From positions 627,501 through 691,500 of the forward strand of contig NZ_PXOQ01000009.1 of NCBI RefSeq assembly GCF_003008425.1: 64,000 bases of DNA, read 5' to 3'. This document shows, in pieces, positions 16,915 through 55,062 of the stretch. How positions within the stretch are numbered: the first letter of the stretch is position 1; the number at the start of each line of letters is the position of its first letter. The position numbers were made by a program, and so were the translations under genes. Below the pieces are notes generated by a model that was not told the DNA's origin, ran no database searches, and was given only the letters and a program-made list of their open reading frames with translations. This DNA is from Aurantibacter aestuarii (lineage in GTDB: Bacteria; Bacteroidota; Bacteroidia; Flavobacteriales; Flavobacteriaceae).

Positions 16915-16918
16915 TGTA

Positions 16919-16940
16919 GTTGTTGGTTGTTGGTTGTTGG
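16919..16940. repeat. Short GGTTGTT tandem repeat
   Basis: TTGTTGG repeated three times in direct tandem just after the stop codon of the preceding gene. The same unit occurs at 53.42 kb. Period seven. Confidence 0.75.
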
Positions 16941-16988
16941 TAAAGATAATTTATCACTTTCAAGTTTTAAACTTGAAAAACTCAAATT

Positions 16989-40457: not shown

Positions 40458-40474
40458 TTTTTTTACTTTTGGCT

Positions 40475-40499
40475 TCTAGCTATTAGCTATTAGCTATTT
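40475..40499. repeat. TTAGCTA tandem repeat upstream of pyrB
   Basis: TAGCTAT units repeated three times in direct tandem (period seven). A related stretch at 53.40 kb reads TTAGCTCTTAGCTATT. Between pyrR and pyrB. Confidence 0.7.
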
Positions 40500-40532
40500 A
40501 ATCAATACCTTAAGTTTTTAATTCTTATAAAT

Positions 40533-52983: not shown

Positions 52984-53376
52984 ATGAAAGATTATAATAT
53001 AAAAAAAACAGATGCAGAGTGGCGTGAGCAATTAAGCAATGAGCAGTACCGCGTTTTAAGACAACAAGGTACAGAGATGCCACATACTGGAAAATATAAT
53101 TTGCATTTTGAGGATGGAACTTACAAATGTGCGGGTTGTAACGAAGCTCTTTTTGAGAGCTCAAGCAAGTTTGAGTCGTCTTGTGGATGGCCTAGTTTTG
53201 ACGAAGCTATAAAGGGTAAAGTCGAGCATATTTTAGATAAATCTCATGGAATGATTCGAACAGAAATTGTATGCGCCAATTGTGGCGGACATTTAGGTCA
53301 TGTGTTTAATGACGGACCTACCGAAACAGGCACACGTTTTTGTGTAAACTCGGCCAGTATTGAATTTAAAAAGTAA
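52984..53376 (+). CDS. msrB: Methionine-R-sulfoxide reductase B, cytoplasmic copy
   Basis: 130 residues from the ATG at 52984 (MKDYNIKKTDAEW); an in-frame ATG at 52963 would overlap the end of the first copy. No signal peptide, so cytoplasmic. Zinc cysteines C49/C52 and C97/C100, catalytic C120 in RFCVNSAS, and the resolving C67 in SSCGWPSF are all present. Four bases after the first copy, likely one transcript. The pair suggests one enzyme for the envelope and one for the cytoplasm, from a local duplication or from independent gain. Confidence 0.95.
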   Translation: MKDYNIKKTDAEWREQLSNEQYRVLRQQGTEMPHTGKYNLHFEDGTYKCAGCNEALFESSSKFESSCGWPSFDEAIKGKVEHILDKSHGMIRTEIVCANCGGHLGHVFNDGPTETGTRFCVNSASIEFKK

Positions 53377-53396: not shown

Positions 53397-53439
53397 ACTT
53401 TTAGCTCTTAGCTATTGGTTGTTGGTTGTTGGTTGTTGG
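53397..53439. repeat. TTAGCTATT and GGTTGTT tandem repeats
   Basis: Composite direct repeats: TTAGCTCTTAGCTATT followed by four GGTTGTT units. GGTTGTT also occurs at 16.92 kb and TAGCTAT at 40.48 kb. Confidence 0.7.
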
Positions 53440-53465
53440 CTAAAAAATAATACCTTGTAAATATT

Positions 53466-53508
53466 AACTACTGTTAACCGATAACTGATTACTGACAACT
53501 GATAACTG
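53466..53508. repeat. Heptamer array, RACTGNN family, copy 2
   Basis: Units AACTACTG, TTAACCG, ATAACTG, ATTACTG, ACAACTG, ATAACTG; the last four are strictly period 7 with the ACTG core. It joins directly to the GC-rich element. Confidence 0.8.
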
Positions 53509-53605
53509 CGTGAGTGATGACGCATTGTTGGAGCTCTTTTGCTGTGATGGCGCCTAAGCCACAGCAAAAAGCGACTGCGGAAAGCACGACCTTTAGGGCA
53601 CGCCA
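53508..53605. mobile_element. Candidate REP/MITE-like GC-rich palindromic element
   Basis: About 98 bases, markedly GC-rich against the AT-rich surroundings. Ends: GCGTG at 53508-53512 and CACGC at 53599-53603, an inverted pair. Inside, CTTTTGCTGTG (53536-53546) pairs with CACAGCAAAAAG (53560-53571) around a GGCGCC-bearing centre. No transposase is encoded; a 64-codon frame across it on the minus strand is not credible as a gene. It may be a non-autonomous mobile element or REP-type hairpin; its copy number cannot be seen from this window. Confidence 0.4.
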
Positions 53606-53685: not shown

Positions 53686-55062
53686 ATGAGTAAATACGAT
53701 GTTATAGTTCTTGGAAGTGGTCCTGGTGGTTATGTTACTGCTATTCGTGCTTCGCAATTAGGATTAAAAACCGCTGTTATAGAAAAAGAAAGTCTTGGTG
53801 GTGTTTGTTTAAATTGGGGTTGTATTCCTACAAAAGCCTTATTAAAATCGGCTCAGGTTTTTGAATATTTAAAACATGCTAACGATTATGGATTAGTGGT
53901 TAAGGAATATGACAAAAATTTTGACGCTGTTGTAAACAGAAGTCGTAACGTAGCTGAAGGCATGAGTAAAGGTGTTCAGTTTTTAATGAAAAAAAATAAA
54001 ATTGACGTTATTAATGGTTTTGGAAAGGTTAAGCCTGGAAAAAAAGTAGACGTTGATGGTAAAGAATATAGTGCAGACCATATCATTATTGCTACTGGTG
54101 CGCGTTCTAGAGAGTTACCTAGTTTACCTCAAGATGGCGAAAAAGTAATTGGTTACAGACAAGCTATGACTTTAAAGAAACAACCTAAGAAAATGATTGT
54201 GGTTGGCTCTGGTGCTATTGGAGTAGAGTTTGCTTATTTCTACAATGCTATGGGAACTGAAGTGACTGTAGTGGAATATTTAGATCGTATTGTTCCTGTT
54301 GAAGATGTTGACGTTTCTAAACAAATGGAAAAATCGTTTAAGAAAAGTGGTATAAACGTGATGACTTCTGCCGAAGTAACTAAAGTGGACACTTCTGGTT
54401 CTGGAGTTAAAGCGACGGTTAAAACTAAAAAAGGTGAAGAAGTTTTAGAAGCTGATTTGGTTTTAAGTGCTGTTGGTATTAAAACAAATATTGAAGGTAT
54501 TGGTTTAGAAGATGTTGGTATTGCAGTGGACAGAGACAAAATTCTAGTAAACAACTATTATCAAACTAACATTCCTGGTTATTATGCTATTGGAGATGTT
54601 ACTCCTGGACAAGCTTTGGCTCATGTAGCTTCTGCTGAAGGTATTTTATGTGTTGAAAAAATTGCTGGACATAACGTTGAAGCTTTAGACTATGGAAACA
54701 TTCCTGGTTGTACTTATGCTTCTCCAGAAATTGCAAGTGTTGGTTTAACAGAGCAACAAGCAAAAGATAAAGGTTACGAGATTAAAGTTGGTAAATTTCC
54801 ATTTTCAGCATCTGGTAAAGCAAGTGCTGCAGGTACCAAAGATGGTTTTGTAAAAGTTATTTTTGATGCCAAATATGGTGAATGGTTAGGTTGCCACATG
54901 ATTGGTGCTGGCGTGACAGATATGATTGCTGAAGCTGTTTTAGGTCGTAAACTTGAAACTACAGGTCATGAAGTACTTAAAGCTGTACATCCGCATCCAA
55001 CTATGAGTGAAGCGGTTATGGAAGCTGTAGCAGATGCTTATGATGAAGTGATTCATTTGTAG
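53686..55062 (+). CDS. lpdA: Dihydrolipoyl dehydrogenase (E3)
   Basis: 458 residues. An FAD enzyme that reoxidises dihydrolipoamide with NAD for the 2-oxo-acid dehydrogenase complexes and the glycine cleavage system. FAD site DVIVLGSGPGGYVTAIRAS, redox-active disulfide C41/C46 in GGVCLNWGCIPTKALL, NAD site VVGSGAIGVEFAYFYNAMG, FAD-binding YYAIGDV, and the catalytic HPHPTMSEAVMEA near the C-terminus, with the His-Glu pair that activates the thiol. Family length. A promoter-like box precedes it. Single rightward gene with bidirectional terminator after it. Confidence 0.98.
   Translation: MSKYDVIVLGSGPGGYVTAIRASQLGLKTAVIEKESLGGVCLNWGCIPTKALLKSAQVFEYLKHANDYGLVVKEYDKNFDAVVNRSRNVAEGMSKGVQFLMKKNKIDVINGFGKVKPGKKVDVDGKEYSADHIIIATGARSRELPSLPQDGEKVIGYRQAMTLKKQPKKMIVVGSGAIGVEFAYFYNAMGTEVTVVEYLDRIVPVEDVDVSKQMEKSFKKSGINVMTSAEVTKVDTSGSGVKATVKTKKGEEVLEADLVLSAVGIKTNIEGIGLEDVGIAVDRDKILVNNYYQTNIPGYYAIGDVTPGQALAHVASAEGILCVEKIAGHNVEALDYGNIPGCTYASPEIASVGLTEQQAKDKGYEIKVGKFPFSASGKASAAGTKDGFVKVIFDAKYGEWLGCHMIGAGVTDMIAEAVLGRKLETTGHEVLKAVHPHPTMSEAVMEAVADAYDEVIHL

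Follow-up and report, generated by a model that had tools for sequence, protein, structure and literature searches.

A Flavo-1-type repeat upstream of lpd in Aurantibacter aestuarii and the possibility that its fold acts as DNA

Results

The window analyzed here, a 64,000-nucleotide stretch of the Aurantibacter aestuarii genome, contains an intergenic gap between msrB, which ends at 53376, and lpd, which starts at 53686, and a GC-rich block is housed in this gap at 53508-53604. The block is 97 bp long, one base shorter than first reported (53508-53605), its folding strand is the + strand, and its orientation matches that of msrB and lpd. The GC content of 53508-53605 is 0.551 compared with 0.321 for the whole window, and the sides of the gap around the block have values of 0.305 and 0.238. 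Upstream of the block are two heptamer arrays, TTGGTTG x3.6 at 53415-53439 and ACTGATA x5.6 at 53470-53508, of which only the latter touches the block, abutting its 5' end. An earlier note on this DNA took the block to be joined to a heptamer array; the ACTGATA array does abut it, but a simple period-7 scan of this genome placed such arrays no more than 130 nt from a copy in 3 of 38 cases, compared with 2.5% of random intergenic points, so that the association is at most weakly non-random, and the array is probably outside the element proper. No comparable period-7 array was seen at the ortholog of the block in G001, the only other genome of the genus in our comparison. Heptamer arrays whose units are related (GTTGTTG, TAGCTAT) occur at three places in the window, 16915-16944, 40470-40502 and 53408-53443, the last spanning the 53415-53439 array, all in non-coding or gene-end DNA.

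The ends of the block form a closing stem, P1, in which GCGTG (53508-53512) pairs with CACGC (53599-53603). Inside it, the three base pairs of P1b are formed by GTG (53514-53516) and CAC (53585-53587), and next to them an A at 53517 faces a G at 53584 in a mismatch conserved among the copies. In the lower part of P2, GCA (53522-53524) pairs with TGC (53576-53578) in both the DNA and the RNA folds, and the surrounding TTGTTGGAGCTCTTTT and AAAAGCGACT are conserved in alignments A1 (described below) and A2. The P2 hairpin is built from GCT-C-TTTTGCTGTG (53533-53546, with the C at 53536 bulged) and CACAGCAAAA-AGC (53560-53572), the inner palindrome being CTTTTGCTGTG paired with CACAGCAAAAAG, and a small hairpin, P3 (CCTTTAGG), occupies 53590-53597. 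The + strand folds as DNA at -19.4 kcal/mol (z -1.91) and as RNA at -32.9 kcal/mol (z -1.34), and the closing stem and the inner palindrome are part of the optimal fold in both cases; folding of the - strand is weaker. Thus the earlier description of a GC-rich block in a non-coding gap (55% GC versus 32% in the window), with GCGTG/CACGC ends and an inner palindrome, was accurate, and the stems it named are exact and present in the optimal + strand fold. The z-scores of this single sequence are modest, so that the case for a structured element rests on comparison.

DNA similarity, the Rfam match, the fold and the alignments together identify the block as a whole element of the Flavo-1 type (Rfam RF01705). 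In cmscan it scored 18.9 bits against RF01705, for which the curated threshold is 42. The model aligns with P1b, with the A.G mismatch and with the hairpin; in the upper P2 the sequence is a different one. The consensus structure of RF01705, an inner hairpin interrupted by purine internal loops, is present, and it pairs in all members of A1, an alignment of eight copies that were gathered from DNA similarity or synteny, independently of the covariance model. In P2 the window copy has TTGTTGGAGCTCTTTT...AAAAAGCGACTGC where the classic type has GCATCCTTTTTT...AAAAAAGATATAGC, and we refer to copies of the former kind as the GGAGCTC subfamily. Its members were also found in G001, in the complete genome G072 and on a Persicobacter megaplasmid; because of this last copy the subfamily extends outside the order, and most of its copies are missed by the Rfam model since they score below the cut-off. 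Nevertheless the two types constitute one superfamily, because they replace each other at orthologous places: one swap distinguishes C4:449525 of A. aestuarii from C48 of G001, and another lies immediately next to the start of a gene that we take to be ssrA (tmRNA) from its conserved GGGGTCGACTGGTTTTGACAGCGA start, where A. aestuarii (L020, C16:4894) and G072 (L293), which belong to different genera, carry different P2 types and have P1, P1b and the P3 CCCGATAGGG in common. We regard it as close to certain that the block is a repeat of the Flavo-1 type and that it belongs to a subfamily which largely escapes Rfam.

In the A. aestuarii genome 25 Flavo-1 matches exceed the cut-off and 33 have E <= 1e-3, and six further copies, including that of the window, were found by DNA similarity and are absent from the Rfam matches at E <= 1e-3, giving at least 39 copies in total, which are single and scattered. 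Flavo-1 was present in 74 of the 120 sampled genera of Flavobacteriaceae, with from 1 to at least 36 copies, and the complete genome G072 has 43. The impression recorded in the earlier note, that similar blocks occur in intergenic regions of Flavobacteria, is therefore borne out, and the copy search of the BLASTN type with mapping that it had proposed returned many copies of conserved structure rather than a single one.

When the copies were placed side by side, the element was seen to exceed the 76-position Rfam model and to form a three-way junction, in which the closing stem P1, corresponding to the inverted ends first noticed, encloses two arms, the long P2 and the small P3. The lower part of P2 is the region covered by the Rfam model and P2 contains conserved purine mismatches, while P3, usually of the form CC...GG, is very variable in length and sequence. 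The stems covary strongly across copies. Among the eight copies of A1, all of the GGAGCTC type, P1 pairs in 8/8 with five different sequences and P1b pairs in 8/8. Among 106 anchored classic-type copies, collected by means of the Rfam model and thus perhaps biased toward paired ones, the lower stems comprise 1060 cells, of which 1048 are Watson-Crick, 5 G.T and 6 A.C, and five positions, P1b covarying among them, use two to four pair types. As a control, tRNAs from nearby DNA, nine only, contain 12 G.U in 188 pairs. In the apical stems G.U amounts to 6.2% on the + strand, similar to the tRNA value, and 1.9% on the - strand, so that the contrast with RNA is limited to the lower stems. Adjacent to P1b, the purine mismatch reads A.G in 99 of the 106 classic-type copies and G.A in the other 7, the two bases being swapped in step, and in the GNA/GNA internal loop of these copies the purines are kept while the middle base is free. 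Only on the + strand do these mismatches bring two purines together, which makes this strand the probable target of recognition, and since arm copying would be expected to have erased the mismatch, the complementarity of the arms is presumably not merely a by-product of such copying.

Orthologous sites in G001, where the neighboring DNA is ~80% identical, show how the stems change. An ortholog of the window copy lies at the same place upstream of lpd, and there P1 has become GCGTAA/TTACGC and P1b GTA/TAC, the apical P2 stem is wholly different yet paired, and P3 is replaced by a 29-nt hairpin that also pairs; many other hairpins occupy the P3 position in other copies. More than ten other element sites are common to the two genomes. 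In ten orthologous pairs, comprising 100 lower-stem pairs, 87 were unchanged, 12 carried double compensatory changes and 1 a single change. In some of these double changes a whole module seems to have been replaced, and others resemble paired point changes.

We also looked for signs of movement. In G034, near-identical P2 hairpins are set in unrelated flanks; these hairpins, the dispersal and the patchy copy number indicate that the element may well have spread in the past. No target-site duplication was found in 55 classic-type copies (the window copy not among them), where the best direct repeat at the flanks averaged 1.0 compared with 0.98 in shuffled pairings, although the flanks are A/T-rich, with TT before and C[C/A][A/T]AA after the element. 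No clean empty site was found between A. aestuarii and G001, because differences in presence coincide with changed gene content or order: the lpd site is filled in G001, and three other sites without a copy there also differ in gene content or order. Nor was there a replication-strand bias (26 lagging and 17 leading copies in G072, 9 and 11 in G062; hand tally from positions and skew), and no mobilizing enzyme was identified. As for carriers, a phage collection gave no match to the element, a genuine classic copy is present on each of two viral contigs, and plasmids hold one copy, on the Persicobacter megaplasmid; the GGAGCTC motif had 28 matches on viral contigs, which without exception lack the 3' arm and were set aside as chance. 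Two other candidate effects were examined and rejected. A 24-kb inversion between the congeners (L023/L034 versus L089/L095 of G001) is real by flank order and both of its intergenic breakpoints are near Flavo-1 copies, but they fall outside the elements, in DNA with other repeats, and so we do not attribute it to Flavo-1. An insertion preference beside intrinsic terminators, suggested by eye in G034, amounted to 5/90 on each side versus 3.3%, not convincingly above background.

The element has a tendency in orientation in some genomes. In A. aestuarii its 3' end faces a stop codon in 31 of 39 copies, often within ~30 nt, so that the folding strand here is mostly antisense to the abutting gene (23 antisense versus 6 sense in tandem contexts); the window copy is an exception. 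Placement of the 3' end just after a stop codon and antisense to the gene is a tendency of A. aestuarii and G001. Loci of other genomes gave 45 antisense versus 18 sense, a count inflated by the inclusion of orthologs, and four complete genomes (G015, G062, G069 and G072) showed no bias, 11 versus 12.

The search for a REP-associated tyrosine transposase (RAYT) proposed in the earlier note turned up a single gene in A. aestuarii, at L044:1390-1938 on C4 (NF047646, 95.9 bits), and the palindrome beside it is a different one: inverted 30-nt palindromes particular to the gene, CCCCACGCTGGCGCGAGCATCATGCTCGTG and its complement, lie on either side of it at L044:1313-1342 and 1964-1993. A second tandem copy of the CCCCACGCTGGCGCGAGCATCATGCTCGTG REP lies on one side of the gene. 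By hand tally, a RAYT is encoded in 25 of 74 Flavo-1-positive and 10 of 46 Flavo-1-negative genomes, and in 4 of the 23 genomes with ten or more Flavo-1 copies; 12 of 19 high-copy genomes lacking a RAYT had no match to any Y1 transposase.

Discussion

Flavo-1 is a known motif without an explanation. A 2022 review counts it among the most abundant bacterial sRNAs (PMC9029176), and in the literature on flavobacterial dispersed hairpin repeats we found no prior work on the present element. The position of P1b, the A.G mismatch and the flanking arms, together with P2 types that are interchangeable at orthologous sites, tie the element to RF01705, and the difference is that Rfam models the P2 part alone and labels it an sRNA.

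Our best reading, for which we consider the chances evenly balanced, is that the fold acts as DNA and that the element is non-autonomous, formerly mobile and served in trans by some protein. In this reading the folded + strand, with P1, P2 with its purine mismatches and the variable P3, would act as DNA, and the hairpin would be recognized while single-stranded or extruded by a trans-acting protein that is neither a RAYT nor an IS200-type Y1 transposase. Copies would have spread between genes in the past and then stayed long at their sites, whole hairpin modules would be exchanged between copies, and selection, perhaps aided by arm-templated repair, would hold the complementarity of the arms during sequence turnover. 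A broader proposal, which we offer more tentatively, is that Flavo-1 as a whole may be structured mobile DNA with a strand-specific three-way junction, moved or maintained in trans by a non-Y1 protein, whose modules are exchanged and whose GGAGCTC subfamily has been missed by Rfam. DNA is favored over RNA because the lower stems are almost free of G.T (5 of 1060 cells versus 12 G.U in 188 tRNA pairs), and a structured DNA element is favored over an sRNA because of the dispersal, the module swaps at orthologous sites and the strict Watson-Crick pairing of the lower stems. Against a DNA element stand the lack of an enzyme, of a target duplication, of a clean empty site and of the replication-strand bias that is known in some single-stranded DNA transposons, and long retention at common sites is not typical of a pure parasite. 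The non-autonomous mobile element suggested in the earlier note nevertheless remains the leading reading of the dispersal.

Integron attC sites are known for sequence-variable stems, conserved unpaired bases and a strand-specific fold of single-stranded DNA, and the Flavo-1-type element shares all three, as a functional analogy only: attC sites stand in cassette arrays, whereas the Flavo-1-type copies are single, scattered and in both orientations, and the terminal order GTTA...TAAC of the element is the reverse of that in attC. Should Flavo-1 prove to be a repeat that folds as DNA, a large number of sRNA annotations in Bacteroidota would be wrong and a protein that recognizes a three-way junction with purine mismatches should be expected; the DNA-element reading can be tested directly by way of the covariation, the module swaps and the GGAGCTC subfamily.

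The principal alternative is a structured non-coding or regulatory RNA transcribed from the + strand, as in Rfam, of which the window copy would be a divergent member. Structured RNAs typically show covariation and internal loops rich in purines, the discoverers rated Flavo-1 as probably an RNA and not cis-regulatory (Weinberg et al. 2010, PMC2864571), and the + strand RNA fold of -32.9 kcal/mol, the sense of the window copy relative to msrB and lpd, and the excess of G.U on the + strand in the apical stems agree with this. However, the lower stems are nearly free of G.U, tens of copies adjoin unrelated genes, in A. aestuarii most copies have the + strand antisense to the gene they abut, and in RNA-seq of Flavobacterium psychrophilum the Flavo-1 matches had no consistent strand relative to transcribed regions and many lay outside them (PMC9723704). 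We thus consider an RNA unlikely, though it deserves to be kept in mind.

The element might instead be used by the host at gene ends, as a cruciform or an mRNA 3' structure that protects mRNA, causes termination or controls supercoiling, as some REP/BIME sequences do. The 31 of 39 copies with the 3' end toward a stop codon, the antisense excess (23:6 and 45:18) and the structure kept at orthologous sites speak for such a role, but the second of these counts is inflated by orthologs, the bias is absent from the four complete genomes, the window copy breaks the rule, the element contains no terminator-like T-tract and terminators are not enriched beside copies. The antisense bias fits poorly with an mRNA hairpin formed from the folding strand, and a neutral DNA element does not explain it either. 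Taken together, a gene-end function seems to us rather improbable.

MITEs of DDE transposons are short non-autonomous elements with inverted ends that generate a target-site duplication. A classical MITE, which carries the short inverted repeats found at the ends of a DDE transposon and is moved by a related insertion sequence, would account for the short inverted ends, the A/T-rich flanks and the size near 100 bp, but it is very improbable here, because none of the 55 copies has a target duplication, the ends covary freely and are not a fixed binding sequence, and the internal structure is conserved. Least credible, and in our view largely refuted, is the REP/REPIN sequence mobilized by a RAYT that the earlier note proposed: the copies are dispersed, intergenic, non-coding palindromes with paired ends and a RAYT does exist in the genome, so that the hairpin repeat itself stands, but the palindromes at the RAYT are unrelated to Flavo-1, copy number does not follow the presence of a RAYT or Y1 transposase, high-copy genomes free of Y1 occur, and in contrast to the 20-40 bp REP hairpin (PMC2817692) with a GTAG- or CGTC-type head the element is a three-way junction of ~100 bp (97 bp in the window, three stems, ends GCGTG/CACGC) that needs no RAYT or Y1 transposase across genomes.

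Two features of the P2 loops may be added. At a set of sites of G001 (L089-L092, L097-L099 and L102) the apical P2 is 85-89 nt long, near-constant in length and with little common sequence, and six of these sites carry short hairpins in A. aestuarii; we read the long loops as diverged descendants of a long-loop ancestor. Finally, a repeat of the form TTGAGCGYAGTCGAAAC is located inside the P2 loops of copies L024, L034 and L037, and it also lies beside several copies, in the 3' and 5' flanks of L016 and L007.
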